Shown here: in pieces, positions 13,714 to 27,866 of the stretch
Position numbering within the stretch: the stretch's first letter is position 1
Layout of the letters: each line of letters opens with the position of its first letter
Source of the DNA: Bryobacterales bacterium KBS 96
Lineage (GTDB): Bacteria; Acidobacteriota; Terriglobia; Bryobacterales; Bryobacteraceae
Direction of reading: 5' to 3'
Assembly: GCA_000381625.1 (NCBI GenBank)
Contig: KB906767.1
Span: forward strand, 5,509,357 to 5,573,356
DNA: 64,000 nt
Program-made: the position numbers and the translations under genes
The notes under the pieces: generated by a model
What the model saw: only the letters and a program-made list of their open reading frames with translations
Databases searched by the model: none
What the model was told of the DNA's origin: nothing

Positions 13714-14171
13714 TACGCTGCCCTCTTCGATGACTTACTTGCTGACTTCTCAATCTCTTCCCGCATCGTCTCGACAAAGGCGTCTACAGCCTTTTGCTTG
13801 CCCGAATCAAATGCGATCCGCATGAACGGATTGGCCGGGACATGCTTGCCGGTGTCCTTCTTGTGCGGCTTGTGCCCAACAATGCGATGGCCAAACTCCA
13901 AGAAGCGGGCGATATGTGATTGCCAGCCGAAGCCCACTGCTCCGATTGCCGCCGCGCCCTCTTTATCGACTTGTACCGTCGTAACAAGTGATTGCTTGAG
14001 CAGGCCGGTATCAGTCGGAGTACGAGCAGCTACCTCTTCAGCCATCACAGTAATTCCGGATTGGACAGCCTTACGGACTATTCGCCGCTCGATGTCCTGC
14101 CCGAGAGCATGGAGATTACGGGCGATCTCATCCATGCCGGTAATCTTGACTGTGACGAAGTTATCCGACAT
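13713..14171 (-). CDS. HK97 gp10-like head-tail completion protein
   Basis: This 152-residue protein has GMDEIARNLHALGQDIERRIVRKAVQSG, ARTPTDTGLLKQSL and VPANPFMRIAFDSGK, the three conserved stretches of the HK97-gp10-like family. Family members act at the head-tail interface or as tail completion proteins. The basic C-terminus (SASKSSKRAA) is usual. It overlaps the head closure gene by 11 bases and touches the DUF3168 gene. Confidence 0.85.
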   Translation of the reverse strand: MSDNFVTVKITGMDEIARNLHALGQDIERRIVRKAVQSGITVMAEEVAARTPTDTGLLKQSLVTTVQVDKEGAAAIGAVGFGWQSHIARFLEFGHRIVGHKPHKKDTGKHVPANPFMRIAFDSGKQKAVDAFVETMREEIEKSASKSSKRAA

Positions 14172-14520
14172 GGGTTTGGCTCTCCAGGAGATACAGCTTG
14201 AGAATCGTTCGGCACTTGTCCGGGTCCAGAGCGGCTTGAATCTCGTATACCTTCGATGCGAATATCAGCCTCATTCCGGCCGTGATCGTCACCGATACCG
14301 GGTAACGCATCGTGAAAACATCAGTAACCTGAGTGCTCAGTTGATTGGCTTGGAACTGCTCTTTAGCCGTCAGGCTGGAGAATCCACCCCAGGGAGACAG
14401 AACATCGGTCCACGTCGGAATAAGCTGACCGTATGCGTCCGGCTGGTCTGCTCGCTGTTGAATCTTGACCAAGTGACGGAGAGATCCGATATCTACTGTC
14501 GTTTCGCGGCGTGTCAGCAT
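14161..14520 (-). CDS. Head closure protein (phage head-tail joining)
   Basis: The product starting at ATG 14520 has 119 residues and contains IGSLRHLVKIQQRADQPDAYGQ with a following PTWTDVLSPWGGF, the pattern of the phage head-tail joining family (SPP1 gp16-like). A frame four codons longer exists, but the ATG at 14520 forms a compact start-stop overlap with the upstream gene and has a G-rich stretch (GGGGCGG) before it. The protein closes the portal channel after packaging. Confidence 0.75.
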   Translation of the reverse strand: MLTRRETTVDIGSLRHLVKIQQRADQPDAYGQLIPTWTDVLSPWGGFSSLTAKEQFQANQLSTQVTDVFTMRYPVSVTITAGMRLIFASKVYEIQAALDPDKCRTILKLYLLESQTHVG

Positions 14521-15116
14521 CCGCCGCCCCATCTGTAGTTCAGGATTAGCGAATCAACACCAATCTGTAGCCTGATCGTGGTCAGCGTTGCGGCAGCAAT
14601 TACCTCTTCTGTTCTGTTGTCGTAGAGTGCTCCGAGGAGCAAGAGAATTGCTTGCCTGAGAGGAGCCGCTACATCGTCCGGGGAATCAACACCAGCCGTA
14701 TATCGGAGGTGGATTCGACCATCGGGCGCCCCACTGAGGAATCGTACTTCGCAGGGCTCACTGAGGAGATCAATTACGTACTTCGAGGAATCGATTGCTG
14801 TAGCCGTGCCGGAGTCATCGATTGACTCGACAGCATCGACTGAGCTTACCGGGCCGCGGGGAATCTTGATTGAGAAGGGCCGGCCGTAATACTCGTAATG
14901 CCGAAAGTGTCTGGAGGTCCAGTAATCCCACGTCTGGGTAATCAGAGCGAGATCGGTCCATTGCTCGATCTGGGTACGAGCAACAGTGATAAGAGATTCA
15001 ATCGAGGTATCAAATGCAGTGTCGGACTCACGAAGATGGGCCTTCGCAGCCGTGAGGTCGATAGGCTCGACGGTCGGCTGAGTATAGATCTTCTCCGAGT
15101 ATGAGTACGTGTGCAT
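14514..15116 (-). CDS. Head-tail connector, HK97 gp6-like
   Basis: The 200-residue protein has PTVEPIDLTAAKAHLRES near the N-terminus, then SLITVARTQIEQWTDLALITQTWDYW, the fingerprint of gp6-like connector proteins, and a C-terminal APLRQAILLLLGALYDNR. It stacks under the portal as the first connector ring. It is placed 66 bases after the major capsid gene, as in HK97-like phages. Confidence 0.87.
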   Translation of the reverse strand: MHTYSYSEKIYTQPTVEPIDLTAAKAHLRESDTAFDTSIESLITVARTQIEQWTDLALITQTWDYWTSRHFRHYEYYGRPFSIKIPRGPVSSVDAVESIDDSGTATAIDSSKYVIDLLSEPCEVRFLSGAPDGRIHLRYTAGVDSPDDVAAPLRQAILLLLGALYDNRTEEVIAAATLTTIRLQIGVDSLILNYRWGGGC

Positions 15117-15182
15117 TGAAGTGATTGAGAGTCGAGAGAGGATACAGACCGGTAAGCCCGTATCCTCTGCTCTGGGGAGTTA

Positions 15183-16343
15183 CTAGCTAGCCGGGTGAGT
15201 CAGGACACTGACCGCTTTGGCGATGGCGAGCTTGCCGTCAGCGCGAAGGGTCGCCTTGAACACAACGCCGTCTTTCATGAAGGCCACTTCAGTCGAAACC
15301 TTGAACTGGACTCCACGAACCTGACGAACGATCAGCTTGCTGAAGTCGCCGTAAGCGATGGACTTCGCACTCGCGCCGATGTCGGGCATCGAGTTGTTGA
15401 TACACACGGCCTGACCGAAGAGCATGTCTTCCGCACCCGCCGAGGCCGGGAAGATAATCGGGCGATTGGTCGTGTCGTGGATCTGCACCAACTCCCCGAA
15501 GGTCGTATCGTTCAGCATCCAGATGGCATTCTTCCGGTACGCTTTGTTCGTGCCGTACTTTAGACCAACCAAGTCGCCGTAGGACACCGCAGCCGCGGCA
15601 GCCGCCGCTTTCGCCGTACCTTGCGATAAGAAACCAGTCGGCTTGCTCGATCCATCGCCAACAGTCAGATCCTCATTGAGGCCGTCGGCAATATCAACCG
15701 CCAACAGAGAAGCCAATTCAGCGGAGATATTCACCCCGTTGTCGTTCAGAAGCTCTTCGGAGAGAGTCACAACCGAGGGGTACTTGTAGGCTTTCAGCAC
15801 GACTTGGCCAAACACGCGGTCGGTGTTGGACATCGTTGTGCCTTCAGCCGTGGCAGCCGCTTTGCTCGCCGTGTTGTCGTTCGTCGGTACGGGCAGATCA
15901 ACGCCCGTCTCGGTCGTCAGTAGCCGGCCAACGTTGAAGGGGCCATCGACGTATTTCAGGGCAACCACAAGCTGGTTATAGAAGCCAGTCGGAACGATAT
16001 CGCCGCCGCCCGTGGTCGAACTCTTCAGGTTGTCGCGATACTCGTAGGGGATCTTGCCTTTGGACCGGACGTGAGCCTCGAAAGCCGCATCGGCAGTCTC
16101 AGAGTTACCCTGACCCTGACGATTGCGCTGCTCAGTCGCCTCTTCGAGCGAACGCTCCAGACCTTCGTGAGCCTCGATGGCTTCGATGGTCGAACGCAGT
16201 TCCTTCTCTTCGGCCAACATGCGGTCGAAGGCTTCTTTCTCTTCGGCGTTCAGACTCCGCTTTTCGGCGGACGCTTTGGCAGTGTACTCGCCCATATCGG
16301 CGATCAATTTGGCGCGTTTCTGACGCAATTCAAGACTCTTCAT
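15183..16343 (-). CDS. Major capsid protein, HK97 fold
   Basis: The product has 386 residues. Residues 1-75 are charged and coiled-coil-like (ELRQKRAKLIADMGEYTAKA...EATEQRN), matching the delta domain that works as an internal scaffold and is removed by the protease. The rest has the HK97 pattern: GDIVPTGFYNQLVVALKY, the E-loop and P-domain region with PVPTNDNTASKAAATAEG, and FKATLRADGKLAIAKAVSVL at the end. It follows the prohead protease gene directly, with a 25-base gap. Confidence 0.93.
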   Translation of the reverse strand: MKSLELRQKRAKLIADMGEYTAKASAEKRSLNAEEKEAFDRMLAEEKELRSTIEAIEAHEGLERSLEEATEQRNRQGQGNSETADAAFEAHVRSKGKIPYEYRDNLKSSTTGGGDIVPTGFYNQLVVALKYVDGPFNVGRLLTTETGVDLPVPTNDNTASKAAATAEGTTMSNTDRVFGQVVLKAYKYPSVVTLSEELLNDNGVNISAELASLLAVDIADGLNEDLTVGDGSSKPTGFLSQGTAKAAAAAAAVSYGDLVGLKYGTNKAYRKNAIWMLNDTTFGELVQIHDTTNRPIIFPASAGAEDMLFGQAVCINNSMPDIGASAKSIAYGDFSKLIVRQVRGVQFKVSTEVAFMKDGVVFKATLRADGKLAIAKAVSVLTHPAS

Positions 16344-16368
16344 AGCTTTCTCCTATGTGAAAATGTGA

Positions 16369-16962
16369 TTACCAATTCCGCAGAACTTCGATGTACTGCG
16401 TCAGAGGCGTGATATCGATGTCGGTCTGTTCCGGCACGACATCATGGGCCGGTTTCTTACTGCGGAACTCTTCAAATACTTCTTTCGCCGACCGGGCCGA
16501 TACAGACGTATTCGTGTAGGCCGGATTGGTCACGATGCTGATATCGAATAACTTGACCTTGAGCAGCGTCCGAGTCTCGGTGTCGTAATCCCAGTTCTCT
16601 TCGACAGCCTGAAAGCCGAACGAACAGCCTGAGATATCTCGACGCTGAACAGATACGAGCAGATCGCGAGCTACTTGGGTGTCGGGTAGATCAATTTCGA
16701 AATAGAGACCGCGAGTATCTTCTCGGAGAGCCAACGTACCGGCCATGTTTCGACCGAGCACTAAATTGTCGTCATGATTGAAGAGGGCAACAATGTTGTC
16801 GGCCGCGAGTGTTTCCGTGAATGCTCCGGCAGCAATCGTCTCGGTGAAGTACCCGCCGATCTCGGTCGGAAAGTCGAACGTCGCAGCGTATCCGACTAGC
16901 TTGCTTGGGTTATCTTCGGCAGCCCGTAGCTCCGGTGCAGACAGCCTGTATTCTTTATTCAT
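16369..16962 (-). CDS. Prohead protease, HK97 family
   Basis: This 197-residue serine protease has LVGYAATFDFPTEIGGYFTETIAAGAF, then VALFNHDDNLVLGRN with the catalytic His and ISGCSFGF with the catalytic Ser, followed by LFDISIVTNPAYTNTSV, the end signature of family U35-type prohead proteases. It cleaves the capsid delta domain during maturation. The start overlaps the portal stop by eight bases. Confidence 0.92.
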   Translation of the reverse strand: MNKEYRLSAPELRAAEDNPSKLVGYAATFDFPTEIGGYFTETIAAGAFTETLAADNIVALFNHDDNLVLGRNMAGTLALREDTRGLYFEIDLPDTQVARDLLVSVQRRDISGCSFGFQAVEENWDYDTETRTLLKVKLFDISIVTNPAYTNTSVSARSAKEVFEEFRSKKPAHDVVPEQTDIDITPLTQYIEVLRNW

Positions 16963-18265
16963 TGGCTGGAGCCTCCGTGTTAGTTGATTTGCCGGCAGTC
17001 TTGCCGGGTCCGCGCCATTGGATTCCAGCGTCTTTGAGTTTCACGAGGGAGGCATTGGCGACTAATTCATCTCCGGCAGGATCATGCGGCAGATTCTCTT
17101 TACGCCTTGCTTCGGAGGGCTTGAGGACCCCGGACGTTACGCCAGTCGCATACTGCTCGAATCGAGTCTTTGAGTCGGTCCGAAGTAATACATCAGGATC
17201 AAAGCCGATCTTGTAGACTTTGCGCTCAGACGATGAGAGCAGGGTATTGTGGATCTCAGCCTCGATATTGGACATTAGAGGCTGGAGCCCATAAACCAGG
17301 AACTCGATAGCATTCTGTTCGGCGTTCCCTTGGGTCTGAGTGACCAATCCCATCGCCGCCGGGTGGATACCGAAGAGGATGCAGACTTCTTGGAGAGACA
17401 TCCTGCGAGTCTCGACAAATTGGAGATCCTGCATCGTAAGGCCGGTACGGACATACTCGACATTGGCCTCTAGCAGAGGAGTACGGAAAGCATTATGAGC
17501 GCCACGAGCTTTGCGCGAGAGAGCTTCCTCGACTTTGCCGCGGGTCTTGTCATTCATGCCGACGGCCTTGAAGAAGCCGGGCTGGATCAGACCATTACCG
17601 AATAGTTGGGCAGAAGCTTCTTCACTCGCTTGGGCTAGACCGAGAGTGTTACGGAAGGCCGCGATAGTGGAGAGGCCGATACCCAGGTCGTTCGATTCCA
17701 GGTTTCGAAAGTGAATGACAGAGTTGCTCGTGTATTCGCGGGTAACACCATCTGGCTCCAGAATGAGATACCGGAGAGAGCCATCAGTCTGGGGCATCGT
17801 AGTGACTCGATCCCAGTGGTACGGCTGGATGCTGGTAACTCTGCCATTTGTCGAGACTGAATACTTCGCCAGAGCATTACCCCGAAGTAGGATCTGCTCG
17901 ACGATGAATCTCTTGGCGCGGAAACTAGTCCAAGACGGATTGAAGCTTTCACCGAGTAGGGGAGACAGGTAATGATTCGGTTCCGCCTGCTGCCCATTCT
18001 CCGGCGTCTCCCGGAGAACTTCTAGCGGCATCATTGCCAGACAGCCTGAGATCAGATTGACAGCGCGATAAACAGCCGAGATCGACAGGGCCGAAGTCTC
18101 AGTTACTCTTTGGCCGGCCGTACTGGAGTACCCGCCAATGATAATTGATTCGCCGTCGTGATTGCCCCAAGTATCGCTACCGGGCGCAAAAGCGGACCGA
18201 GACTCTACATCTAAGAGGCTCGGTTGTCCTGTATTCGTGATGAGGCTGTTTAAGGAACTAATCAC
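16955..18265 (-). CDS. Portal protein, HK97 family
   Basis: This 436-residue protein matches HK97-type portals: VSAVYRAVNLISGCLAMMPLEVLRE-like text near residue 60, HYLSPLLGESFNPSWTSFRAKRFIVEQILLRGNA, then QFVETRRMSLQEVCILFGIHPAAMG and the C-terminal PHDPAGDELV. It forms the ring through which DNA enters. It lies between the large terminase and the protease, in the usual order. The C-terminus overlaps the protease start. Confidence 0.92.
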   Translation of the reverse strand: MISSLNSLITNTGQPSLLDVESRSAFAPGSDTWGNHDGESIIIGGYSSTAGQRVTETSALSISAVYRAVNLISGCLAMMPLEVLRETPENGQQAEPNHYLSPLLGESFNPSWTSFRAKRFIVEQILLRGNALAKYSVSTNGRVTSIQPYHWDRVTTMPQTDGSLRYLILEPDGVTREYTSNSVIHFRNLESNDLGIGLSTIAAFRNTLGLAQASEEASAQLFGNGLIQPGFFKAVGMNDKTRGKVEEALSRKARGAHNAFRTPLLEANVEYVRTGLTMQDLQFVETRRMSLQEVCILFGIHPAAMGLVTQTQGNAEQNAIEFLVYGLQPLMSNIEAEIHNTLLSSSERKVYKIGFDPDVLLRTDSKTRFEQYATGVTSGVLKPSEARRKENLPHDPAGDELVANASLVKLKDAGIQWRGPGKTAGKSTNTEAPANE

Positions 18266-18331
18266 TAATTCGTGGGGCTCTAAAGTATATGTAGGCGAAG
18301 GACTAGCCTACTGCGACGGAAAGTGACTGAC

Positions 18332-19888
18332 TTAGTAGTCAACCATCACAACATCGTGGCCGTCGGCATACGGATCTGGATTGTCGTAACCGTGTCGAAT
18401 GGCTCGATCCAAGGCCATAATCGTGGCTACAATTGGGTCGATTCTCTTGTCTGACTTGTTATAGGCCGGTTTGGCCGGCTGGATGTTGCCTGAATGGTCC
18501 GTCTTGAGGTCGAGGCAGGATGCTGACCACTGGAGTAATGGATGTCCGCCGTGTCGTAACTTGGCATCTCTGACCAGTTCGAGGAATCGCTTGGTCGGCT
18601 GAGTCATCCCGGATATATTCTGCGGGATCGGGATAACTGTGAAGCCGTCTTTCTCCAGCCGGGCTGTAAGCTCGTCCATGCCCCACCGATCGACAGCGAT
18701 CTCCTGCACTTCGTACTGCTCTGATAGCTCTTTGACCTTGGCGAGAATGTCATCGGTACGGATTACCCGCCCTTCGCACGTCAGTAAATGGCCGTGCTTG
18801 TGCCACTTCTCGTATGGCACTTTATCTCTTTGTCCCGCTTTGGGCAGCATCTCCGAGGGCAGCCAGGACCATGTTTCTACGTCGAAGGTGCCGGTATCGT
18901 AGTCAGGCCAGACTGCCGACAGAGCGGAGAGATCGAGTCTCGATGAAAGATCGATTGCCAGAAAGCAGGGCCGTTCTTTGCGATCTCCCCGGAGAGCCTC
19001 AGAGCAGAGCTTCCAATCTGCCAGCTCAATCGCGCCCTCGACTACCGAAGACAGCCATGTATTCAGGTGGAAGCGCCGGAATGAACGCTCTGCTACAGGG
19101 TCACCGAGAGCAGCCCGGTATATCTCCCGGAGAGCCTCGATGTCCATGTATCCGCCGTTTTCTTTGAGGGACGGATTGACTTTTACCCAGTTCGATTCGT
19201 CCTGGAAGTCATCCTCCGGCCCGAGTCCGAACACGAGAGGGTAGAACGTAGGATCTTGGATCTTACCCTCAAGTATCGCCATCGCCCGGTTGTGCATCGA
19301 CAGAGCGAGCGGTGACTCGTCGGCGGATCCGGCCGTAGTGATGATTACCCGGAGCGGTTCTTTGAGAGTGGTGCCGGCCTTCTTTATGACTTCCCACAGG
19401 GCAAGCTGAGACTCAGCGTGCCATCGGTGAAGTTCATCGACCAGGACGTGCCCGCCGAATCCGTCATTCTTTCCGCCGTCGGCTGAGATGGCCCGAAAAT
19501 AACTGAGCAGATCATTCCGCTTCTGAATCCATTTCGTCGCCGCGAGCGGTTTGAGGATGGTCCGGAGGATTGGAGACTGGGTAACGTAATTGAGCGAGAC
19601 GTCAAATATGTTCTTCGTCTGGTTCTTGGTCGCCGCGGCAACAGTAACTTGGTTGTGCTCTTCGCCGCCGTAGAGTGCGAGGTAGATACCGAGCCCACCG
19701 AGCAGGACTGATTTTCCATTCCTACCGGGAACCTCAATATAGATCGTTCGGTATTGGCGCCGGCCGTCCGGTCGAAGTGTCCCGAAGACATCAGAGATAC
19801 ACTTCTGCTGCCAGGGCGGAAGTTTGACATTCAGCACCTTGTGAAAGAAGTTGAGCGCGTGTTTCGCTTTCTGTTGGCTGAAGGGCAA
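18332..19888 (-). CDS. Terminase large subunit
   Basis: This 518-residue packaging motor shows the ATPase motifs PGRNGKS (Walker A, about residue 53), HVLVDELHRW (Walker B) and ITTAGS (coupling motif), then the nuclease residues in FLAIDLSSRLD and VDRWGMDEL and a final KRIDPIVATIMALDRA. It translocates DNA into the prohead and cuts it. The group pairs with P27-type small subunits, as here. The small subunit stop at 19894 lies 6 bases before its start. Confidence 0.95.
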   Translation of the reverse strand: MPFSQQKAKHALNFFHKVLNVKLPPWQQKCISDVFGTLRPDGRRQYRTIYIEVPGRNGKSVLLGGLGIYLALYGGEEHNQVTVAAATKNQTKNIFDVSLNYVTQSPILRTILKPLAATKWIQKRNDLLSYFRAISADGGKNDGFGGHVLVDELHRWHAESQLALWEVIKKAGTTLKEPLRVIITTAGSADESPLALSMHNRAMAILEGKIQDPTFYPLVFGLGPEDDFQDESNWVKVNPSLKENGGYMDIEALREIYRAALGDPVAERSFRRFHLNTWLSSVVEGAIELADWKLCSEALRGDRKERPCFLAIDLSSRLDLSALSAVWPDYDTGTFDVETWSWLPSEMLPKAGQRDKVPYEKWHKHGHLLTCEGRVIRTDDILAKVKELSEQYEVQEIAVDRWGMDELTARLEKDGFTVIPIPQNISGMTQPTKRFLELVRDAKLRHGGHPLLQWSASCLDLKTDHSGNIQPAKPAYNKSDKRIDPIVATIMALDRAIRHGYDNPDPYADGHDVVMVDY

Positions 19889-19893
19889 AGAGA

Positions 19894-20331
19894 TTACTCG
19901 GGCTCGGTATCGTCATCGTCTAAGAGGAGATCAAGCTCGGCTTGTGCATCAAAGTTGGCGTCCGCCAGGCGAACTCGTGATGCCGGAGTGAGGCCGAACT
20001 CAGTGCAGAACTTCCGCATCTGATCGAGGGCTGTATTGGCGATTCCCACATGCGGGCTATTTATGGGATAGCCTGACTTCGGCGACTTGACGACCGTTCC
20101 ATATTTTTGGCAGGCCAGCTCGGCTGCGATCCACCGGGAATAGCTGGAACAATAGGCTGCCAGTGCAGCACGATCAACCGCGGTAATCAATCCCCAGGGA
20201 GCAAGCTCTTTGACGATGCGTTTCCATTCGGCCTTGGCGATCTTATCCAAGTGGGCCGGGCATGAAGGAACACCGGTAGGCTTTGGAGCGCCTTTCTTTC
20301 CGGGGTCTGGGGTAGGTTTACGTCCAACCAT
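19894..20331 (-). CDS. Terminase small subunit, P27 family
   Basis: I place the start at 20331 (MVGRKPTPDPGKKGAPKPTG), which has AGGAG 11 bases upstream and follows the previous stop by two bases; a frame 13 codons longer overlaps the neighbour. The 145-residue protein has WKRIVKELAPWGLITAVDRAALAAYC and GIANTALDQMRKFCTEFGLTPASR, the P27 family signature. It recognises packaging DNA. An acidic tail (LLLDDDDTEPE) closes it. In phages that hypermodify cytosine the same family is often found beside the modification genes. Confidence 0.88.
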   Translation of the reverse strand: MVGRKPTPDPGKKGAPKPTGVPSCPAHLDKIAKAEWKRIVKELAPWGLITAVDRAALAAYCSSYSRWIAAELACQKYGTVVKSPKSGYPINSPHVGIANTALDQMRKFCTEFGLTPASRVRLADANFDAQAELDLLLDDDDTEPE

Positions 20332-20332
20332 G

Positions 20333-20563
20333 TTATTGTGTTTCTCCTCGACTCTGGCGAAAGAGGACATCTATATCGCCGTATTCCTCGAACTCTTTGC
20401 TCTCAACCCACAGGACAATGCAATCCAGCGGGCGATCATAGCTGGCGTCAACGATTCTGGCGTCCCGAGGTAGACCTTCAGCGGTAATCCCGGGCGGAAC
20501 TGGATGCCGGAGGAACTCGACCAGTAACTCAGGTGTTATTAGGAGTCGTTTTCTTCCGATCAT
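20333..20563 (-). CDS. Small phage protein of unknown function
   Basis: The ATG at 20563 overlaps the TAA of the glycosyltransferase gene as TAATG, so translation is probably coupled; a start eight codons earlier is less likely. The 76 residues (MIGRKRLLITPELLVEFLRHP...) are mixed, with an acidic end (EEYGDIDVLF). No family is recognised. Its place between the glycosyltransferase and the small terminase suggests a part in DNA modification or packaging, by position only. Confidence 0.6.
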   Translation of the reverse strand: MIGRKRLLITPELLVEFLRHPVPPGITAEGLPRDARIVDASYDRPLDCIVLWVESKEFEEYGDIDVLFRQSRGETQ

Positions 20564-21438
20564 TATTTGCCCCCTGCTATCTTGCACAGGCTCATGCCGT
20601 AGTCGTTCGGCCCTTCGGGGATCACGATACCCTCTTTGCGCTTTAGCTGGTTGCGCCGAAAGGGCCGGTAATCTACGTGGTGGTGATCGCGGCCAAACTT
20701 ATGGGCGTGACGGGCGTACTCCGGGTAAAGGTCGACCAGCATCTTGCTCTTCGGGTAGGTCCCTCCCACATAAATCGTGTCGGTGTTACCGCCTTTTACC
20801 GTCTGTGTGGTCAATTTCTTCTGCTGGAAAGTGTTAAACAATGCCGTACACCAACCATCCCGGAGCATGTCGAGAGACAAGATGGTGTCCTCGTTGTAGC
20901 GTCCGCGCCAGCGATACGGAATGTCGTTTCGAATCAAGTTACAGGAATAAATCCGAGTGTTGAACACTACCGGCGAATGCTTCTGCTTGCGGGGGACGAA
21001 CATCTCATAGTTCGGGCCCGCCATGCCCACGTTCTCGTAGCGCAAACAGAAGTCTTCCATCACACGAAAGAAAGCCCCGTCCAGCACTTCATAGCGGAGG
21101 TTATTGGTGTAACGGAGGAAACGAACAATGTTGTCATCCATGATCCAGTGCCACGGATAACCCATCTCGATGCTCGTGTCCCAAATGAAGTTACGAGCCG
21201 GGCCGGAGCCAGTGGATTTAGCCGTGCCGAGGGCATCAAGCGTCTGGTAACTCTGCTTGTACGCCATGTCGAGTGTGAGGATATGCTCCTTCGGAATCAC
21301 TGCGGCGTACATCTCATACTCCTGTGGCTCGACTACCGCATACCACTTCTCGATGTTCATGCGTTGGAGAGCCTTAATCGTCAGGCGACTATCGTAGCGG
21401 GAAAGCGTTGGGATGAATATGGGGAATTGAGGCTGCAT
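20563..21438 (-). CDS. TET-associated-type glycosyltransferase (TAGT), DNA hypermodification candidate
   Basis: This 291-residue protein resembles the TAGT glycosyltransferases of phages with TET/JBP-derived base modification: an N-terminal IFIPTLSRYDSRLT, then GPARNFIWD (79-87), WIMDDNI (98-104) with an acidic DxD-like metal site, and RGRYNEDTILSLDMLRDGW (178-196) with a probable catalytic acid. Known members transfer sugar to 5-hydroxymethylcytosine in DNA. It is one base from the ParB-like gene and next to the P27 terminase, a combination known from such phages. No TET-type dioxygenase is present in the window, so the acceptor is unknown. Confidence 0.72.
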   Translation of the reverse strand: MQPQFPIFIPTLSRYDSRLTIKALQRMNIEKWYAVVEPQEYEMYAAVIPKEHILTLDMAYKQSYQTLDALGTAKSTGSGPARNFIWDTSIEMGYPWHWIMDDNIVRFLRYTNNLRYEVLDGAFFRVMEDFCLRYENVGMAGPNYEMFVPRKQKHSPVVFNTRIYSCNLIRNDIPYRWRGRYNEDTILSLDMLRDGWCTALFNTFQQKKLTTQTVKGGNTDTIYVGGTYPKSKMLVDLYPEYARHAHKFGRDHHHVDYRPFRRNQLKRKEGIVIPEGPNDYGMSLCKIAGGK

Positions 21439-22080
21439 TTATTCCGTCACGTACTTCTCGCTCTGTAGCTCTGCCCGGTCCTCTTTCGGGAACCAGAGAT
21501 ACTTCGTCTGAGGACTAATGGTCTGACTCAGAAGCTTCGCAAACTCCTGTACCGCGGCGTCGCTCTGGAAATGTATGATAATGTCCCGCACGCCTGTTTG
21601 GTCTTCGTTCGTGTAATCAGGCATCCCGACATATTCAGCGTTGGGGTCGGTCGGCGTTACCTCCTCACCGATCGCATCGGCTAACTCGGCATCCGTGAAG
21701 AATGGCTGGAGATCCTCAGTCGGGAACTCCGAGAGAATCGCCGGGTCCCATTCAAGGCCGATCTCAGCAGTCCGGTTGTCTGCTATGGCAAGCTGTCGAG
21801 CCTTGGCGTCGTCCAGATCCAAGTCGGTACGCTGGACAACTACGAGCTTGGTTCCGTCGGTCGGCACAACAATGCAGTCATCGGAGAGGCCGGCAGCCTG
21901 AGCATTGGCCGCAGTTTTATTGCCCGCAATGATGTTGCCTGACTTGTCCACGACAATAGATCGGCCGGCGCCGTACTTGGCGAGCGATTCTTTGACCAGT
22001 TCGTGACCACGTACAGTCCCTTTATTGGCGTTGTTGGGGTCGGGTTGGAGATCGGACAGGGTGAGTTTGGGTCGTAACAT
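21439..22080 (-). CDS. ParB-like nuclease-fold protein linked to DNA modification
   Basis: This 213-residue protein starts with LTLSDLQPDPNNANKGTVRG and carries the ParB/Srx-fold core AKYGAGRSIVVDKSGNIIAGNKT (about 34-56), followed by LAIADNRTAEIGLEWD. The C-terminal third has YVGMPDYTNEDQTGVRDIIIHF, a module that accompanies the ParB fold in phage modification islands. It probably binds DNA or NTP and may guide the glycosyltransferase encoded one base downstream. No partner ParA or centromere-like repeat was seen, so a plasmid-type partition role is unlikely. Confidence 0.72.
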   Translation of the reverse strand: MLRPKLTLSDLQPDPNNANKGTVRGHELVKESLAKYGAGRSIVVDKSGNIIAGNKTAANAQAAGLSDDCIVVPTDGTKLVVVQRTDLDLDDAKARQLAIADNRTAEIGLEWDPAILSEFPTEDLQPFFTDAELADAIGEEVTPTDPNAEYVGMPDYTNEDQTGVRDIIIHFQSDAAVQEFAKLLSQTISPQTKYLWFPKEDRAELQSEKYVTE

Positions 22081-22240
22081 GATGTAACATTGAGGTTTAA
22101 CGAATAACCCCTCGGTTCATTTATCCGTTTTTACAAATTAAAGCGGTGTGTGGTCTACCGATGGGCGTAACAAACATATTCAACCTCCCCAGGGGGCATC
22201 TGTATGTTATTGATACTGATAGAGATAGCTGCATACACAG

Positions 22241-22588
22241 TTATCGATCCCAGATGACTGGCCCGTATAGCTTGAGATCCTGCTTTGATTTGAGTTGGTG
22301 GCAGGCAACGCACATACTTTGGTGGTTCTCTGGATCGAGGACTGCTCCTCCGGCTGATATCGGGATCTTGTGATCCACTAAGAAGGCCAGAGTTACTCTG
22401 TTCTCACGTTCACATAGTTCACAGAGCGGATGAGAGATGAGATATTCTGCTCTGGCTTTCTGCCATGCTCTTCCGTATCCTCTCTTCGCCGCGGTCGGTC
22501 TGTACTCCGCCGCTTGTGGCTTGTGCATCTGACAGAACTTGCCAAAGCTTATGAGTCGGGAGCAGGTAGAGTTACCACAGGGTTTCAC
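22241..22588 (-). CDS. HNH endonuclease (packaging-associated type)
   Basis: This 115-residue protein has a zinc knuckle CxxxxC near the N-terminus, LCELCERENRV in the middle, then FLVDHKIPISAGGAVLDPENHQSMCVACHQLKSKQD, a complete HNH/zinc site. Such small HNH proteins lie near terminase genes in many HK97-type phages and help terminase cut DNA. The gene is separated from terminase by the modification genes. The start overlaps the previous stop by four bases (ATGA). Confidence 0.85.
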   Translation of the reverse strand: MKPCGNSTCSRLISFGKFCQMHKPQAAEYRPTAAKRGYGRAWQKARAEYLISHPLCELCERENRVTLAFLVDHKIPISAGGAVLDPENHQSMCVACHQLKSKQDLKLYGPVIWDR

Positions 22589-22830
22589 TGGTTGGATGTC
22601 TCCTGTATCCGGTAACTCTGTCTGAGTCTATTGGCTAGAGTTTCTTCCTTCTCTTCTGTCTCTGGCTTGCCCGCGGCCGGAATGATAAAGGCACGAGAGA
22701 TCTCCTGGAGATACCTATTGACCAGATCCCGGTAGAGATCGGCAAATGAATCACTCGGACCACAATCACCCGAGCGGGAATTTAGACCCGCGTCGGCAGC
22801 GACCATAGTCCGAGTGAAGAGTCGCATCAT
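22585..22830 (-). CDS. Small phage protein; N-terminus related to 23143-23334
   Basis: This is an 81-residue frame with ATGA coupling to the HNH gene. Residues 5-31 (FTRTMVAADAG...GDCGPSDS) match in phase the segment TRTTVSDRGPGDS of the small frame at 23143-23334. The same DNA can fold into a hairpin with 9-base arms. The rest has a charged helix (FADLYRDLVNRYLQEI). No family is recognised. It may be a real small gene or coding forced by a DNA element. Confidence 0.5.
   Translation of the reverse strand: MMRLFTRTMVAADAGLNSRSGDCGPSDSFADLYRDLVNRYLQEISRAFIIPAAGKPETEEKEETLANRLRQSYRIQETSNQ
22752..22816. repeat. Hairpin element copy 1 (arms CACTCGGAC / GTCCGAGTG)
   Basis: Two perfect 9-base arms, 22752-22760 and 22808-22816, enclose 47 bases that include an inner stem GCGGG/CCCGC around AATTTAGA. 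The outer part (GAATCACTCGGACCAC and ACCATAGTCCGAGTG) matches the copy at 23268-23302, in which both arms have changed together (T to C and A to G), so pairing is kept. It overlaps the start of the 81-residue frame. Confidence 0.55.
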
Positions 22831-22833
22831 CCC

Positions 22834-23121
22834 CTACAGCAACGGCTGAATAAACGACACCGACGCCGTGCTGCTTGCGACAATCGCGTATAAGTCATGA
22901 GGATTGCTGCCAACGCTCGGCACACGTACAGAGTCACCAGCCGCGACAGGATAACCGCCCGTACTTGTTTCATCCGGCGTTACAGTCGAACTGCCGAGAT
23001 AGACGGTAACTGTTCCCTGATTCTTTACGAGGATTCCGTCGTTCTGTGATGCAACGGTCGCCAGTAATGTCGCCGTGGTGCCGATTGACACTGTGCCGTG
23101 GGAATAGCTAGAGTTTGGCAT
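22834..23121 (-). CDS. Small virion protein, decoration/fibre-like
   Basis: The 95-residue product is rich in Thr, Ser and Val with the pattern GTVSIGTTATLLATV...GILVKNQGTVTVYLGSSTVT...GYPVAAGDSVRVPS...LYAIVASSTASVSFI. This beta-rich layout is common in small phage proteins annotated as head fibre or capsid decoration proteins. It has no signal peptide. It lies in a strip of small genes upstream of the packaging genes. The role is inferred from pattern and context. Confidence 0.6.
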   Translation of the reverse strand: MPNSSYSHGTVSIGTTATLLATVASQNDGILVKNQGTVTVYLGSSTVTPDETSTGGYPVAAGDSVRVPSVGSNPHDLYAIVASSTASVSFIQPLL

Positions 23122-23142
23122 GTTATCTTGTGATCCTTTGTT

Positions 23143-23334
23143 TCATGAGTTGTCTAATTGGTTCGGAGAAGTGGCTGCCTGCTCGTTTGCCCGCCTGTCC
23201 CGGAGATTGTCGAGATAGGCTGCTCGCTGTGGGCAGTCATCTTTGGATCTGGGTATCGCGACAGAATCACCCGGACCACGATCAGATACCGTAGTCCGGG
23301 TGGCGAGCAGATTGGAGGTGGAGGACGATTGCAC
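23143..23334 (-). CDS. Possible small phage protein
   Basis: A 63-residue frame fills the gap between the sigma-like gene and the decoration-like gene. Its residues 11-24 (ATRTTVSDRGPGDS) are related to those of the frame at 22585-22830, in the same codon phase, which argues for a real paralogous coding segment. A competing 70-residue frame overlaps on the same strand (23154-23366) and cannot be ruled out. No function can be given. Confidence 0.35.
   Translation of the reverse strand: MQSSSTSNLLATRTTVSDRGPGDSVAIPRSKDDCPQRAAYLDNLRDRRANEQAATSPNQLDNS
23268..23302. repeat. Hairpin element copy 2 (arms CACCCGGAC / GTCCGGGTG)
   Basis: Perfect 9-base arms at 23268-23276 and 23294-23302 enclose 17 bases. 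Compared with copy 1 at 22752-22816 the fourth base of one arm and its partner in the other arm differ in a compensating way, a sign that the paired structure matters. The inner insertion of copy 1 is missing. The element could act as DNA (protein site) or as RNA in the late transcript. Confidence 0.55.
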
Positions 23335-23371
23335 TTGCGGGGCTCACTGTACATGTAGTGAGCCACTCTGG

Positions 23372-23926
23372 TTACTGCGACGGATTATTTGCTCCTGCGG
23401 CAGATCGGAGTAACTGCATGGCTACTTCGATCTCATGTCTTATTTGCCGCTCCGGAGTGTTGAGCGCCTTGGCGATCTGGCGATAACCCATTGCTGGTTC
23501 CGTCAAACCGAGGTTGAGGGAGAGTATCTGTTGCTGTCTCTCACTGAGTCTGGCCCATAGTGTTTCTGCCGTGAGAGCATCCTCGTATGACTCTGTGGGA
23601 TCGTCTTGGAGCTTCTCGGTTACGGCTGTGTATTCCCCGCCGCCCGAGAATAACTGGCAGTGTTTATCGGAGTAGGCGATACATCTCTGCCTCTGTCGTC
23701 TTGCCGCGCGACGGATGACTGTACGGCAGTATTCCGGGTGTGGCCGGCAATCCTGAGTGATTGCGATGAGGTCGAGTCGACATACTTGAGCAATGTCGTC
23801 TCTGTCTGATCGTGTTACCCCGCGAGTGGACTTCTCCAGGCTTGCAGCTACCTTGCGGATGTATGGGTCGTACTGCGCCAGAAGCTCCTCATCTGATATA
23901 TAGGGTGCTGGTGTAGGTGCAGCCAT
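23372..23926 (-). CDS. Phage sigma-70-like transcription factor
   Basis: The 184-residue protein has a region-2-like helix set (LLAQYDPYIRKVAASLEKS, DRDDIAQVCRLDLI, VIRRAARRQRQRCIAY) and a C-terminal region-4-like helix-turn-helix (LSERQQQILSLNLGL...GYRQIAKALNTPERQIRHEIEVAMQLL). Such small sigma-like factors often switch on late phage genes. It is coded at the head of the minus-strand morphogenesis block and is coupled by TAATG to the zinc-ribbon gene before it. That it drives the late operon is an inference. Confidence 0.75.
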   Translation of the reverse strand: MAAPTPAPYISDEELLAQYDPYIRKVAASLEKSTRGVTRSDRDDIAQVCRLDLIAITQDCRPHPEYCRTVIRRAARRQRQRCIAYSDKHCQLFSGGGEYTAVTEKLQDDPTESYEDALTAETLWARLSERQQQILSLNLGLTEPAMGYRQIAKALNTPERQIRHEIEVAMQLLRSAAGANNPSQ

Positions 23927-24204
23927 TACAGCAACCCCAGAATTGCAGCCGCACAGAGTATCGTCGCAGCACCAGCGCCGAGAAAGAACGAGGGGAGTCC
24001 GTATGCTACGAAATTGTCAATATCCGGGTGGAGTCTCAGATATTTGCCGATTCGCTCGATTATTCCTTTTCTCTTTGAGTCGCCCGCGGCCGGGCTGTCG
24101 AATAAGCTGCCGCAAGTCCGGCAGTAATAAGACGCTATATCTTTCTCGCACGAGTTGGACGATTCTACAGCGCGTTGGCTGTCACACGTAGGGCATATCG
24201 GCAT
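23926..24204 (-). CDS. Zinc-ribbon protein with C-terminal membrane segment
   Basis: Residues 4-33 hold two Cys pairs (CPTCDS and YCRTCGSLF), a small zinc ribbon, and the C-terminus ends in a hydrophobic run (FFLGAGAATILCAAAILGLL) that could cross the membrane. The protein has 92 residues. Start and stop overlap both neighbours as TAATG. It may be a membrane-anchored regulator or a superinfection factor; nothing decides this. Confidence 0.6.
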   Translation of the reverse strand: MPICPTCDSQRAVESSNSCEKDIASYYCRTCGSLFDSPAAGDSKRKGIIERIGKYLRLHPDIDNFVAYGLPSFFLGAGAATILCAAAILGLL

Positions 24205-24488
24205 TACTGGATTCCTGCTTTCTTGATTGATTTCTTGGCGGCCTTTACTTGGTCGGCAGCATCTTGGGCGGTCAGATTGATGATTCGGCGAATCTGTCGA
24301 GTCATGTGCCGCTCTTCTGGCCTCGTCTCCCGGAGTCGTCGCTGAACTGCCAGGAGTACTTCGTTGCTCTGTCGATCGGTGAGCCGACGCTCGATCTTGA
24401 GTGTCTGGACGGCCATCTGTTCGTGAGCTAGGTGCAGATCGATCAGAGCCACGTCGGAGATCTGGTCGCTAGGCTGCTGACGCTGCAT
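24204..24488 (-). CDS. Small basic helical phage protein
   Basis: I choose the ATG at 24488 (MQRQQPSDQISDVALIDLHL) because AGGAG sits seven bases before it; an ATG 17 codons earlier overlaps the HNH/AP2 gene by 71 bases without a good ribosome site. The 94-residue product is Arg/Lys-rich and helical (LTDRQSNEVLLAVQRRLRETRPEERHMTRQIRRI), ending KAAKKSIKKAGIQ, so nucleic-acid binding is possible. The family is not recognised. Confidence 0.55.
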   Translation of the reverse strand: MQRQQPSDQISDVALIDLHLAHEQMAVQTLKIERRLTDRQSNEVLLAVQRRLRETRPEERHMTRQIRRIINLTAQDAADQVKAAKKSIKKAGIQ

Positions 24489-25086
24489 TGGCGATCTCCT
24501 GTACGGCCGGTATCTGCATTGCGGTGCCCCTGCTGCCATCAGGCTGGATTACTTTGGCCAAGACGGGGAAGTTCAGGGAGGCGAAGTCTCCGTGCCGGAA
24601 GATCGCCCCAAGATCCCGGACAATGGCAGCATCGACCAAATCAGCGTATGTACCGAGATACTTGACTCGGCGATCGGTCGTAATGGTGGCTACCCATTTA
24701 TCTCCGGTGAGAGATCGTGTGACTCCCAGATAGCCTGACTTATTGCTCTTCGGCTTCCGTCGATTACGATTGTTTTCCGCCGTTGTCGCCGGCCGTAGAT
24801 TGTCCGAGCAGTAATTGAGCGTGTCTCTGTCTCTGTGATCGACCAGCTTGCCGTCTGTGGGACATAAATACTGGTGCAAGTATTCATTTTTCTGGTCGGC
24901 CGTCTTGCGGTATGCGTAACATCGGCTGCCCTGCCGCATCAGTGTCCATTGGTGCCGAGATACTCGCTCGACATCTGCCAGATCGATCCTGAACTCTACA
25001 GGCCTGTCGTATCGGTCGAATATGACCAGTCGGCAGCCGTTCTCTGGGGCTGCCCAGATTTCATTGCGATGATAATTGCGTGTCAT
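24469..25086 (-). CDS. HNH endonuclease with AP2-type DNA-binding domain
   Basis: The 205-residue protein has an HNH_3-type core (LHQYLCPTDGKLVDHRDRDTLNYCSDNLRPATTAENNRN) followed by an AP2-like module (SGYLGVTRSLTGDKWVATITTDRRVKYLGTYADLVDAAIVRD). This combination is typical of phage homing endonucleases. It is the first gene of the minus-strand block and faces the control region at 25087-25674. A role in transcription control through the AP2 part cannot be excluded. Confidence 0.82.
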   Translation of the reverse strand: MTRNYHRNEIWAAPENGCRLVIFDRYDRPVEFRIDLADVERVSRHQWTLMRQGSRCYAYRKTADQKNEYLHQYLCPTDGKLVDHRDRDTLNYCSDNLRPATTAENNRNRRKPKSNKSGYLGVTRSLTGDKWVATITTDRRVKYLGTYADLVDAAIVRDLGAIFRHGDFASLNFPVLAKVIQPDGSRGTAMQIPAVQEIANAASAA

Positions 25087-25298
25087 TTATGATTCCCCTG
25101 AACGGTCCGGAAACATCTAACTGTTTCTCTGTCGTTCGCTATTTTGGTAATATTCCGGATCGCATATCGACTTTTGCTGTATTTCAAGCCAGGCGCTCTT
25201 AGGCCATTGAAAACAAAGCAAAAATAAATATGCTGACTTTCTTGTTTTCACCACTTCACTTTTCGACTCTGTGGCAGTTGTGTTAGATTTCTGCCATT

Positions 25299-25315
25299 TG
25301 AGTCTCCGAGACTCA
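25299..25315. promoter_or_regulatory. Inverted repeat TGAGTCTC-C-GAGACTCA (operator candidate)
   Basis: Eight-base arms with a one-base centre give a 17-base perfect palindrome, the size of a dimeric repressor site. It lies 210 bases before the minus-strand HNH/AP2 gene and 376 before the primase ATG. Confidence 0.5.
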
Positions 25316-25429
25316 TTCTCTATATCTGCGGATCTCGACTGACATTCCGGTCGAATGGCAAAATAAAGTGAAGAAAAGCGGCGGAAGTGTGCCTATGTGG
25401 ACGGCGGTTCTATATACTAGAAATAGATA

Positions 25430-25469
25430 TGAGCAGCCGGTGAGGCTTAACCTCTTCCCTTGCTGCTCA
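25430..25469. promoter_or_regulatory. Nested hairpin TGAGCAGC...GAGG/CCTC...GCTGCTCA
   Basis: Eight-base outer arms (25430-25437, 25462-25469) enclose a small inner stem GAGG-CTTAA-CCTC (25442-25454). It lies 12 bases after a TATACT box and would form in a plus-strand leader transcript, so it may be a leader structure or an operator. Confidence 0.45.
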
Positions 25470-25515
25470 CATTAAGGGTCCTTCGACAAAGAAATATCGT
25501 CGCAGGTTGCCTAGA

Positions 25516-25535
25516 CAATGACTACATAGTCATTG
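25516..25535. promoter_or_regulatory. 20-base perfect palindrome CAATGACTACATAGTCATTG
   Basis: Nine-base arms around CA read the same on both strands. It is the strongest palindrome in the control region, 140 bases before the likely primase start. It is a good operator candidate; its protein is unknown. Confidence 0.55.
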
Positions 25536-25674
25536 AAGCCCCTCATACGGGCTGCCCTCCGCAGTCACTTTATTTGTCTCTTTTCGGGTGTGTGGGTCGC
25601 CGGCCAGCGGCCCAGACGCTTTTAGTCCCGGAATCGAGAAAGTAGTGCCGGAGAACGAAAACGAGACATATAAA

Positions 25675-27486
25675 ATGATTCGATCAGAAATCAATCCATA
25701 TATCCCACCTGCTCTCAGAGCGGGTTCATTTTGCGCTTGGCGCTATTTGTCAGCCTTACCCTCGGGAAAGATCCCCAAGGCTCCGTTTGATCCTCGTAAT
25801 GGCTTCAAGCTGAAGCCGAACAGACCGACTACGTGGTTATCCATCGGATCGCTGATTGACTCGCTGACAGTCTCCAGTGGCTCCTATGCCGGTATTGGTC
25901 GACTCTGCACATATCCGACCGACCAGATCATCTCCGTTGATATAGACGATTGCTTCCTCGACGCCGGAGAACTGAAGCCTTGGGCTGCTCCGTATGCTCT
26001 CTCCGGGAGCTATACCGAGATCTCTCCTTCCGGCCGCGGGCTGAGAGTTTTCGTCCGGGGCGAGCTTCCCGCTGATATCGCTGTCGTCGGGTCGAAGAAG
26101 ATCCACCAAAAGAACACAATTCCGGGATCTCCCGATTCCGAAGTCATGATCTCCCTGCGATCGGTCTACGTGACACTGACCGGCCGCCAGTATGGCTCTG
26201 CCACTGACGTGGCGCTTAACCAACCGTTTGTTGATTCTCTGGTAGCTCCGATCTTGGCTTCAGGGAAGAAATGCCCAAAGAAGAAAGAACAACCCCAACA
26301 CCACAAATGTGAATTATTCTTAGCTGTCACCCCTGTTGTTTCCCCCGCTGAAATTGATTCCGCAATCGAATTATTGAGCCGGCCGGAAGTCGATAAATTC
26401 TTCGGCCCCGATTGGACCGGTAGTGGAACACGTAAGGATCAGTCTCCGAGCGGCATGATGGCTACCATTATTTCGGCCTGCTCTCGTGTCGGATATTCCG
26501 AGGCAGTCGCTCGTAGAATCTGGGAGAAATGGTGCGATCTGCATTCCCATAAGTTCCGGGTTGCTCAGTGGTGGACTTCATGGGAAAAGTTAAATCCCCA
26601 AAACCACAACCACTGTGAATTATTCTTATCTGTCACCTTCTCTGAGAATCCTACCCTGGAAAATGCCATTGATCTGGTATTTCCAGACAGTTACAGCCTT
26701 TCATCTCGGATACAGGCTATTTTCTATCGCTGCTTTTCCGCCGGCCTGAGCGAATCCGATGCTGTCTGGGCCGCAGGGCAAGAGATCTGCAAGTCTGGTG
26801 AGGATCTACTCATCCTGCCTCACCATGTCACTCACTGGTCGAAATGGGCGAATACGCTGCTCAATACCCATAGCAAGGGATTCCGCAACCGGAAGAAGAG
26901 AGGTCCCAGTGAGCAAGTTCAAAAAGGCGCTGCTCTCCGGAACGCTGGAAAGTCGGCAAAAGAGATCGCCGAAGAAACTGGAATTGCTTATTCGACGGTC
27001 AAAAAGCAGATATCGAGAGCCAAACAATATGGACTTTTGACGATTGAGTGCTCAATCGAAGTCGAGAACCCCAACACCAACACCTGTGAACTATTCTTAG
27101 CTGTCACCTCATCCGAGGATTCCACCCCAGAAGAAAATCTCCAAAACATATTTGAGCGTCACAGCCTTTATTTCACCTGGAGCGACACCGGCGAAATGGA
27201 ATATGAGGAATGGCTGAACTGGTATTCGTCCCTGTCTGCCAATGCCCAGGATTATTATTTGGTGGACCTCGATCAGCAGGAGCTTATTGCCGCCGGTGAA
27301 CGGGAAAAGGAATGCAAGGATACGTATTTCGCCTGTGAGACCGCATGGTACACGGGGATGAATGGACTCGATACTGAGCTTTGGGGCCGAGAGAAAGAAG
27401 CCGCCATTGAAGAGATCGGGCCGGTCGACTTCGAGGTGTTGGCGCAGTGGTTCCCGGGTCTGGTAGCTCGATATCGGGCCGCCTGA
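25675..27486 (+). CDS. AEP primase-polymerase-like replication protein with internal repeats
   Basis: With the ATG at 25675 the product has 603 residues; an ATG at 25588 adds 29 unrelated-looking residues. The N-terminal half reads WRYLSALPSGKIPKAPFDPRNG, then IISVDIDDC (acidic motif), SGSYTEISPSGRGLRVFVRG, the pattern of phage primase-polymerases of the AEP group (NrS-1-like). The C-terminal half has two related helical modules (GYSEAVARRIWEKW; GLSESDAVWAAGQE) and a helix-turn-helix (GKSAKEIAEETGIAYSTVKKQISRA). Three near-identical DNA repeats encode (C)ELFLAVT between modules. It probably starts phage DNA replication. Confidence 0.72.
   Translation: MIRSEINPYIPPALRAGSFCAWRYLSALPSGKIPKAPFDPRNGFKLKPNRPTTWLSIGSLIDSLTVSSGSYAGIGRLCTYPTDQIISVDIDDCFLDAGELKPWAAPYALSGSYTEISPSGRGLRVFVRGELPADIAVVGSKKIHQKNTIPGSPDSEVMISLRSVYVTLTGRQYGSATDVALNQPFVDSLVAPILASGKKCPKKKEQPQHHKCELFLAVTPVVSPAEIDSAIELLSRPEVDKFFGPDWTGSGTRKDQSPSGMMATIISACSRVGYSEAVARRIWEKWCDLHSHKFRVAQWWTSWEKLNPQNHNHCELFLSVTFSENPTLENAIDLVFPDSYSLSSRIQAIFYRCFSAGLSESDAVWAAGQEICKSGEDLLILPHHVTHWSKWANTLLNTHSKGFRNRKKRGPSEQVQKGAALRNAGKSAKEIAEETGIAYSTVKKQISRAKQYGLLTIECSIEVENPNTNTCELFLAVTSSEDSTPEENLQNIFERHSLYFTWSDTGEMEYEEWLNWYSSLSANAQDYYLVDLDQQELIAAGEREKECKDTYFACETAWYTGMNGLDTELWGREKEAAIEEIGPVDFEVLAQWFPGLVARYRAA
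26308..26331 (+). repeat. Direct repeat copy 1 inside the primase gene
   Basis: The 24-base core begins TGTGAATTATTCTTAG and ends CTGTCACC; it encodes CELFLAVT in frame and is preceded by a C/A-rich tract from 26291 (ACCCCAACACCACAA). It is richer in A/T than the codons around it. Copies 2 and 3 lie at 26614 and 27085. Confidence 0.75.
26614..26637 (+). repeat. Direct repeat copy 2 inside the primase gene
   Basis: It differs from copy 1 by a single base in the 24-base core (G to T, giving CELFLSVT). It is preceded by ATCCCCAAAACCACAACCAC. It lies 306 bases (102 codons) after copy 1. Confidence 0.75.
27085..27108 (+). repeat. Direct repeat copy 3 inside the primase gene
   Basis: It differs from copy 1 by a single silent base in the core (TTA to CTA, Leu). 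It is preceded by AACCCCAACACCAACACC. It lies 471 bases (157 codons) after copy 2. Confidence 0.75.
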
Positions 27487-27575
27487 AAATAAATTCTCTG
27501 ATCGTCGGACTTTTCCAGGAATCCCGCAGATACAGCTTTCGTAGGCCAGATTTAGGCCTCGGAAAGCGAAGTTAA

Positions 27576-27866
27576 ATGCAAGTTGTTGAGTTTGGGCCGG
27601 AGATCGTATCCGGTCTGGTAGCGGCCGCGATTGAACAATCTGAGCGGGAGACGAAACTCCTAGATTCCCTTCGATTGGCGATCCAGAGCCGCCGGGTGAA
27701 CGAGATTATCCGGCTGTCATCAGTACTGGTCGGAGTTGATGGATTCACTACAGATGTTCCTGATATAGTAGAGATCTATGAGCCAGCAGGCAGTAGCACT
27801 GATTCGGGTGTCCTCCGAAGAGCAGGCCCAAGAGGGTCTCGGAGGGATCGAGCGGCAGCGGCGTGA
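27576..27866 (+). CDS. Small phage protein before the integrase
   Basis: This 96-residue frame starts with MQVVEFGPEIVSGLVAAAIEQSERETKLL and is helical for the first 60 residues. Its last 30 residues overlap the integrase start by 89 bases in another frame. A purine-rich stretch (GGAAAGCGAAG) precedes the ATG. It could be a recombination directionality factor by position, but it shows no recognised motif, so this is only a guess from context. Confidence 0.45.
   Translation: MQVVEFGPEIVSGLVAAAIEQSERETKLLDSLRLAIQSRRVNEIIRLSSVLVGVDGFTTDVPDIVEIYEPAGSSTDSGVLRRAGPRGSRRDRAAAA

Follow-up and report, generated by a model that had tools for sequence, protein, structure and literature searches.

A ParB-like gene and a TAGT-family glycosyltransferase gene form a recurrent pair in viruses of bacteria and archaea

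The DNA analysed here (the window) is a stretch of 64,000 nucleotides from Bryobacterales bacterium KBS 96 (contig KB906767.1, positions 5,509,357 to 5,573,356) that contains most of a prophage. In this prophage a gene for a ParB-like protein is followed directly by one for a glycosyltransferase of the TAGT family, and the pair sits between an HNH endonuclease gene and P27-type terminase genes. Hundreds of sequences from viruses of bacteria and archaea carry the ParB-TAGT pair. The lack of a TET-type oxygenase, which the original prediction singled out, is a property of the widespread module rather than of this phage: no protein scored above the cut-off of the TET/Tet_JBP profile (PF12851) in any of 134 class-A or 52 class-B records (see below). 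The two genes probably constitute one functional unit, in which a ParB-type protein would target DNA glycosylation around the time of packaging and the acceptor would come from neither of the known routes. The features of the pair are as follows.

20563..21438, minus strand: TAGT-family glycosyltransferase, 291 amino acids; predicted GT-A fold, with HWIMDDN (DXD-type) and NED motifs
21439..22080, minus strand: ParB-like protein, 213 amino acids; ParB/Srx-type domain (residues ~1-135) and GMPE domain (residues ~141-205)
21442..21666, minus strand: 'GMPE' domain, W-x-G-M-P-E ... HF ... F ... Q ... TKxIWxP

The paired proteins and the GMPE domain

From its profile matches the gene at 20563-21438 is a TAGT-family glycosyltransferase gene, and its product has a predicted GT-A fold. 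The protein matched the full length of Pfam PF20691 (profile positions 1-205; E 1.7e-38, score 133 bits, cut-off 27.5) as well as PHROG 842 (E 4.8e-44); the profile search placed it within TAGT, as originally predicted. The family name stems from a neighbouring TET gene, whose presence is not a sequence criterion. No TET adjoins the gene in the window, and PF20691 includes ggt (beta-glucosyl-HMC-alpha-glucosyltransferase) of phage T6, itself without an adjoining TET. Structure prediction, which had been proposed for both proteins of the pair, yielded an AlphaFold2 model of the TAGT protein with a mean pLDDT of 90.6 (from an alignment of 27 sequences) that aligned with GT-A enzymes in Foldseek. 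Among the 50 matches listed by VIA-align, those to GT-A enzymes had Z values of 12.5-14.6, the best over 224 residues. The motif HWIMDDNI is invariant across the 27 aligned TAGT sequences.

The adjoining partner is ParB-like by its match to PHROG 620 (E 1.2e-19) and by its predicted fold. The protein from the window (P0002) was unmatched by PF02195 (ParB_N), yet 20 of the 27 aligned partner proteins match this profile. Its model (mean pLDDT 77.7) resembles CTP-binding ParB, matching the CDP/CTP-bound structures 7bnk and 6sdk with a Foldseek E of ~6e-4 and a whole-model TM of only ~0.35. One of the 27 aligned proteins matches GmrSD_N (PF03235), a type IV restriction family targeting glucosylated DNA, and three GMPE partners with a divergent N-domain (L031, L043 and L073) carry the motif DGHxRL.

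The C-terminal ~70 residues, for which the name GMPE was coined in this analysis, are common to all 27 aligned partners, with M, P, F, F and P invariant; the ParB N-domain is variable while GMPE and TAGT are constant. Aeh1, POP12, NVP1076, NVP1124, Kuja (two copies) and PTm1 are phages in which GMPE and TAGT form one protein, with GMPE on the N-terminal side and no ParB domain. These fused proteins, from phages of Aeromonas, Vibrio, Tenacibaculum and Pectobacterium, have TAGT parts with 44-51% identity to that of the window and share its GMPE domain; they differ from the window pair in being single polypeptides and in that five of the seven records contain a PF00303 (thymidylate-synthase-type) protein. 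In phage henriette GMPE and TAGT are encoded in different frames. The TAGT of this phage (Vibrio phage henriette 12B8, L165 ~4700-5790) is unannotated, and the break between the frames is either a frameshift or a sequencing error. Such fusions, as Rosetta-stone evidence, argue that the ParB-like protein works on or with TAGT.

A tblastn search of 50,697 phage records with a single GMPE sequence (E up to 1) gave 12 records, all among the 22 that bear TAGT. GMPE was not found apart from TAGT in the fetched loci, all of which had been chosen for TAGT.

Recurrence of the pair and its neighbours

Relatives of the window TAGT, here class A, were taken from the best 80 of 250 and the best 80 of 452 relatives on viral contigs and from seven loci found in a genome scan. 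The resulting set has 134 distinct contigs, 127 of them viral and seven from genomes; one of the viral contigs is the IMG/VR copy of the prophage studied here (L005, G001). In 127 of the 134 loci a GMPE-type partner is encoded upstream of TAGT, on the same strand and no more than 1.5 kb away. Of the remainder, five are cut by a contig end and only two (L083 and L109) truly lack the partner, giving 127 of 129 testable loci. After removal of identical TAGTs the ParB gene was upstream in 111 of 117 loci, with cut loci counted. The GMPE and TAGT matches are at most 200 nucleotides apart in 109 of the 127 pairs.

A second and more remote group (class B) was assembled from scans with the TAGTs of the archaeal virus HHTV-2 (TAGT gp22, preceded by the ParB-like gp21), Porphyromonas phage005 and MT835491. 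Each of these has a ParB-like gene directly before TAGT, terminase genes further downstream and neither PF12851 nor PF00303, as in the window. Unlike in the window, the TAGT is remote (about 24-29% identity to the window TAGT over the aligned parts for these three; 20-29% across class B) and the C-terminal region of the ParB is without a GMPE profile match, as was found for class-B ParBs in general. The scans gave 222 loci, of which 190 were distinct after 32 duplicates had been dropped. The ParB gene is upstream in 175 of the 190; thirteen are cut and two lack it (L202 and L231), giving 175 of 177 testable loci.

Outside the pair, these loci hold few ParB-like matches: two in 1.14 Mb for class A and ten in 1.34 Mb for class B. 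Pairing kept over ~300 loci excludes chance. The stop-to-start gap is between -30 and +10 in 90 of 110 class-A and 147 of 173 class-B pairs, start codons having been set by a simple rule, and in the window the ATG of TAGT starts exactly where the ParB stop codon ends. Translation of the two genes is therefore probably coupled.

Terminase genes commonly follow the pair. A TerL cluster was present downstream in 64 of the 92 class-A loci with at least 3.5 kb of downstream sequence (four of the six terminase clusters were confirmed by Pfam and two by eye), and the main terminase-like cluster of class B, recognised by eye, in 108 of 188 loci. Phage005 has the order ParB-TAGT-TerS-TerL, and in HHTV-2 eight genes separate TAGT from TerL. 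Two TAGT genes lie close together in L019 (406-2633), L070 (49-2358), L083 (1-1624) and Kuja (L164 4587-7275), which suggests two successive sugar additions.

Genes for nucleotide-sugar metabolism also occur near the pair. Among the 134 class-A loci, an NAD-dependent epimerase cluster was found in 30, a UDPG-dehydrogenase-like cluster in 13 (7 on the same strand), a cytidylyltransferase-like cluster in nine and a second DXD glycosyltransferase in nine, each cluster being named from one scanned representative. The presence of nucleotide-sugar genes supports real sugar transfer. The gene for this additional DXD glycosyltransferase, whose representative matches PF04488, immediately precedes TAGT in L013 (1572-2222) and eight loci like it; in L013 it lies between ParB and TAGT.

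A TET partner was seen only in a small set. In the TET-TAGT pair of Nonlabens phage P12024L (gp26-gp27) the TAGT gene is directly downstream of its partner gene, like that of the window, but the partner encodes a PF12851 oxygenase and no ParB adjoins. The same layout is found in its one testable relative (L181); L180 duplicates P12024L as its IMG/VR copy, which leaves P12024L itself and this relative as the '2 of 2' TET-linked loci. In phage Nigel a ParB gene lies directly before a gene for a TET-like protein that is below the Pfam cut-off. TET, TAGT and ParB were side by side in no locus among those examined, and the named phages looked at did not bear out the idea that known phages carry a TET-dependent set of this kind. 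Although TAGT takes its name from TET, its all but constant companion in both large groups is ParB, in class A even with a common adapter domain. In a tree of 42 rows class B was a single group (support 99/96), rows of class A and of the fused proteins were poorly resolved from each other, and the TET-linked and T6 rows were on long branches with unsure placement.

No description of a ParB-TAGT pair was found in the literature searched. An earlier one (for example in Iyer 2013 or Burke 2021) is possible and the pairing is not claimed to be unpublished. The words 'ParB' and 'terminase' are absent from the main text of PMC13216743, and the available portions of PMC7326821 and PMC12373910 describe no such pair. 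In PMC6965579 the DNA-modification genes given for phage Faze9 include one for a ParB-like protein.

Acceptor-making enzymes and the role of the pair

It had been suggested that the left part of the prophage might carry an oxygenase. None was found there; the left 7.7 kb contains tail-fibre and metalloprotease-type genes. The observation that no TET, hydroxymethylase or nucleotide kinase is visible held for all Pfam-scanned prophage proteins, among them proteins of this left part. Thirty-nine of these proteins were scanned together (24 matching families) and others separately; the open reading frame at 9655-12084 (tape-measure-like by eye), a fibre-like one across the window start and small open reading frames fell outside the scan.

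Searches across records covered PF12851, PF00303 and the C5 methyltransferase family PF00145, other oxygenase families and 7-deazaguanine genes not being searched there. PF12851 was absent above cut-off from all 134 class-A records (127 viral and 7 genome), from 50 class-B records and from the three named class-B phages. HHTV-2 is in both sets, its IMG/VR copy being L262, and is counted once in the 52 distinct class-B records. The host genome gave no PF12851 match, and the control genomes of that search were silent too. Among positive controls, the P12024L protein was clear (E 2.8e-29) and the Nigel TET-like protein matched below cut-off, so divergent TETs can escape this profile; Actinoplanes phage phiAsp2, taken to be TET-bearing and intended as a control, gave no PF12851 match. 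PF00303 was found in none of 97 class-A viral records, including the prophage copy G001 (the control matched in 9 of 14 genomes), and in none of 52 distinct class-B records (the set of 50 and the three named phages). Neither a TET nor a PF00303 enzyme was found in the ParB-TAGT records searched, and the enzyme may, as had been suggested, glycosylate something else.

Two other sources of an acceptor were considered. PF00145 was present in only 4 of 48 viral class-A records, and 5-methylcytosine was rejected as a general precursor. A radical SAM gene adjoins TAGT in 16 of the 188 class-B loci, for example L193 (3026-3994) and L176 (~4939-5901), as judged from one scanned representative; it was rejected as a general acceptor maker because it is confined to these.

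The proposal of a ParB-targeted DNA-glycosylation module builds on the predicted fold, the motifs, the near-constant pairing, the common GMPE domain, the place upstream of terminase genes and the two acceptor families not found. From these we infer the following sequence of events. The ParB-like protein and TAGT would be produced together and associate by way of the GMPE domain, and ParB would bring TAGT to viral DNA. TAGT, with its GT-A fold, would transfer a sugar from a nucleotide-sugar donor, probably late, since the place before the terminase genes suggests action around packaging. The product would shield viral DNA from host nucleases. The acceptor may be an unmodified base, or a group supplied by an unrecognised enzyme, no recognisable TET or thymidylate-synthase-type maker having been found.

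Support for DNA as the substrate comes from ParB-type proteins associated with DNA-base modifiers, as in Nigel (above). The best phage-record match of the window ParB-like protein, in CL131, is encoded beside a C5 methyltransferase. ParBc proteins, whose role is unknown, accompany the phage cytosine-modifying enzyme CmoX and are also fused to DNA methyltransferases (PMC12783734). ParBc often adjoins the DNA-base-modifying enzyme there, as the ParB-like gene adjoins TAGT in the window; unlike TAGT, CmoX is a carboxymethyltransferase, and the word 'glycosyltransferase' does not occur in the main text of that paper.

Several observations weigh against this proposal. The activity of TAGT is known only as a prediction from sequence and model, and most fold neighbours of the model are GT-A enzymes that modify proteins or polysaccharides. 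The CTP-site motifs of the partner differ from those of canonical ParB, and the N-domain is divergent in some partners (L031, L043 and L073). Of the 92 class-A loci that could be tested, 28 gave no TerL. No sugar-nucleotide gene was present among the scanned proteins of the window prophage, which would thus depend on host nucleotide sugars. The single-sequence GMPE query missed the profile-positive NVP1076, NVP1124, Kuja and henriette, so it is not certain that GMPE is confined to records with TAGT. As most viral records are fragments, the absences are no proof, and because no acceptor maker was found the chemistry on DNA is unexplained. Finally, virions of phage DLP3 were found to contain a ParB-like protein whose gene is beside the portal gene (PMC7326821); this would suit a part in virion structure or packaging with no modification of DNA.

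A more far-reaching version of the module, for tailed viruses of bacteria and archaea at large, can be offered only tentatively. Unmodified DNA would be glycosylated directly, with ParB picking the sites and the sugar attached to a base (at an exocyclic amine, for instance) just ahead of packaging; phages with a hydroxylated base would dispense with ParB and retain only the fused GMPE adapter. With an unmodified base as acceptor, this would be new chemistry for DNA protection.

It is unlikely that TAGT follows the conventional route, in which the acceptor would be 5-hydroxymethylcytosine or another hydroxylated base of that kind and its maker a TET, a hydroxymethylase of the thymidylate-synthase type or some other oxygenase, either host-encoded or too divergent for the profiles. 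The TET beside the P12024L TAGT is consistent with this route, as is the sub-cut-off score in Nigel, which shows how a divergent TET can be missed. PF00303 occurs in the five of seven isolated phages with GMPE and TAGT noted above; these genomes are of 107-233 kb, and in such large fused phages it may be a plain thymidylate synthase. One class-A record (G132) has a sub-cut-off PF12851 match that is better assigned to PF13640, another 2-oxoglutarate oxygenase family, encoded away from TAGT. Against these stand the absence of PF12851 (above cut-off) and PF00303 from the ParB-TAGT records searched, the missing PF12851 match in the host genome and the lack of any oxygenase among the scanned prophage proteins.

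Phage T6 is the other system that points to the conventional route. Its ggt is a PF20691 member like the window TAGT (35.8 bits, cut-off 27.5) and adjoins a dCMP hydroxymethylase; it adds a second sugar to a base that is already glucosylated. The T6 ggt model is reported as GT-A and the enzyme acts on T6 phage DNA (PMC13216743). Unlike the window TAGT clade, ggt has no match to the class-A profile (E 0.22) and is only a remote relative, so transfer of its acceptor to the window TAGT is weak. Unlike T6, the window prophage has no hydroxymethylase and no alpha- or beta-glucosyltransferase family among its scanned proteins. TAGT homologues without alpha- or beta-glucosyltransferase occur in 288 of 753 phage genomes and are possible novel transferases (PMC13216743). 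The ParB-TAGT pair offers a handle on their role, and on that of ParBc proteins beside DNA-modifying enzymes (PMC12783734). As the isolated virus HHTV-2 carries the pair, the question is directly accessible.

A protein target, such as the terminase, portal, capsid or a host factor, with ParB as a packaging scaffold or regulator, also has little probability. The best structural neighbours of the TAGT model include protein O-glycosyltransferases, the pair adjoins TerS, TerL and portal genes, and the virion protein of DLP3 would fit; yet a common fold does not reveal the acceptor, and ParB-type domains are recurrently beside or fused to DNA-base-modifying enzymes. In addition, the T4-like phages POP12 and Aeh1 have no packaging gene annotated within 5 kb of GMPE-TAGT.

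Least probable is a packaging mark, in which ParB would load at a defined pac/cos-like site and TAGT would modify DNA only there, gating terminase much as cleavage of phage P1 pac is controlled by methylation: the ParB-TAGT-TerS-TerL order in the window (with one 84-residue open reading frame between), in phage005 and in many relatives, and the variable N-domain of ParB next to constant GMPE and TAGT, would suit it, but the region beside terminase genes commonly hosts accessory genes in phage genomes and the eight intervening genes of HHTV-2 argue otherwise.

The prophage and its other genes

The remaining features around the pair, which include the predicted P27-type terminase and HNH neighbours, are as follows.

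1..29395: part of the prophage within the window; ~7.7 kb more lies to the left, and the borders are approximate
18332..19888, minus strand: terminase large subunit TerL (PF03354, PF20441)
19894..20370, minus strand: terminase small subunit TerS, P27/Terminase_4 type (PF05119)
20333..20587, minus strand: open reading frame of 84 amino acids, placed between TAGT and TerS with an overlap on each side; unmatched by Pfam, with only a weak PHROG match
22241..22588, minus strand: HNH endonuclease (PF01844), upstream of the pair
27778..29340, plus strand: serine recombinase, likely the integrase (PF00239), at the right edge of the prophage
29384-30463, minus strand: N-terminal half of comM (yifB, Mg-chelatase type), at the right prophage border
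L003 11793-12149, minus strand: C-terminal half of comM (yifB), at the left prophage border

The comM (yifB) gene is split by this serine-recombinase prophage. With its halves at both borders and ~7.7 kb outside the window on the left, the prophage is ~37 kb long. The longest exact match between the two comM junction regions was only nine bases, with no longer att repeat found, and the borders are therefore approximate.

The Pfam families of the prophage are structural, lysis-type, HNH/GIY-YIG nuclease, metalloprotease and DUF4145 families, and the PHROG scan listed 25 of 49 families. The tail-fibre J-like protein (4451-8014, minus strand) has a C-terminus that by eye resembles a Hint/intein-type domain. 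In the left arm (L003 12425-13876, plus strand), two small metalloprotease-like genes, one for a protein with a Peptidase_M10 (matrixin) match and one for an M41-like HEAGH protein recognised by eye, lie near the DUF4145 gene and may be cargo.

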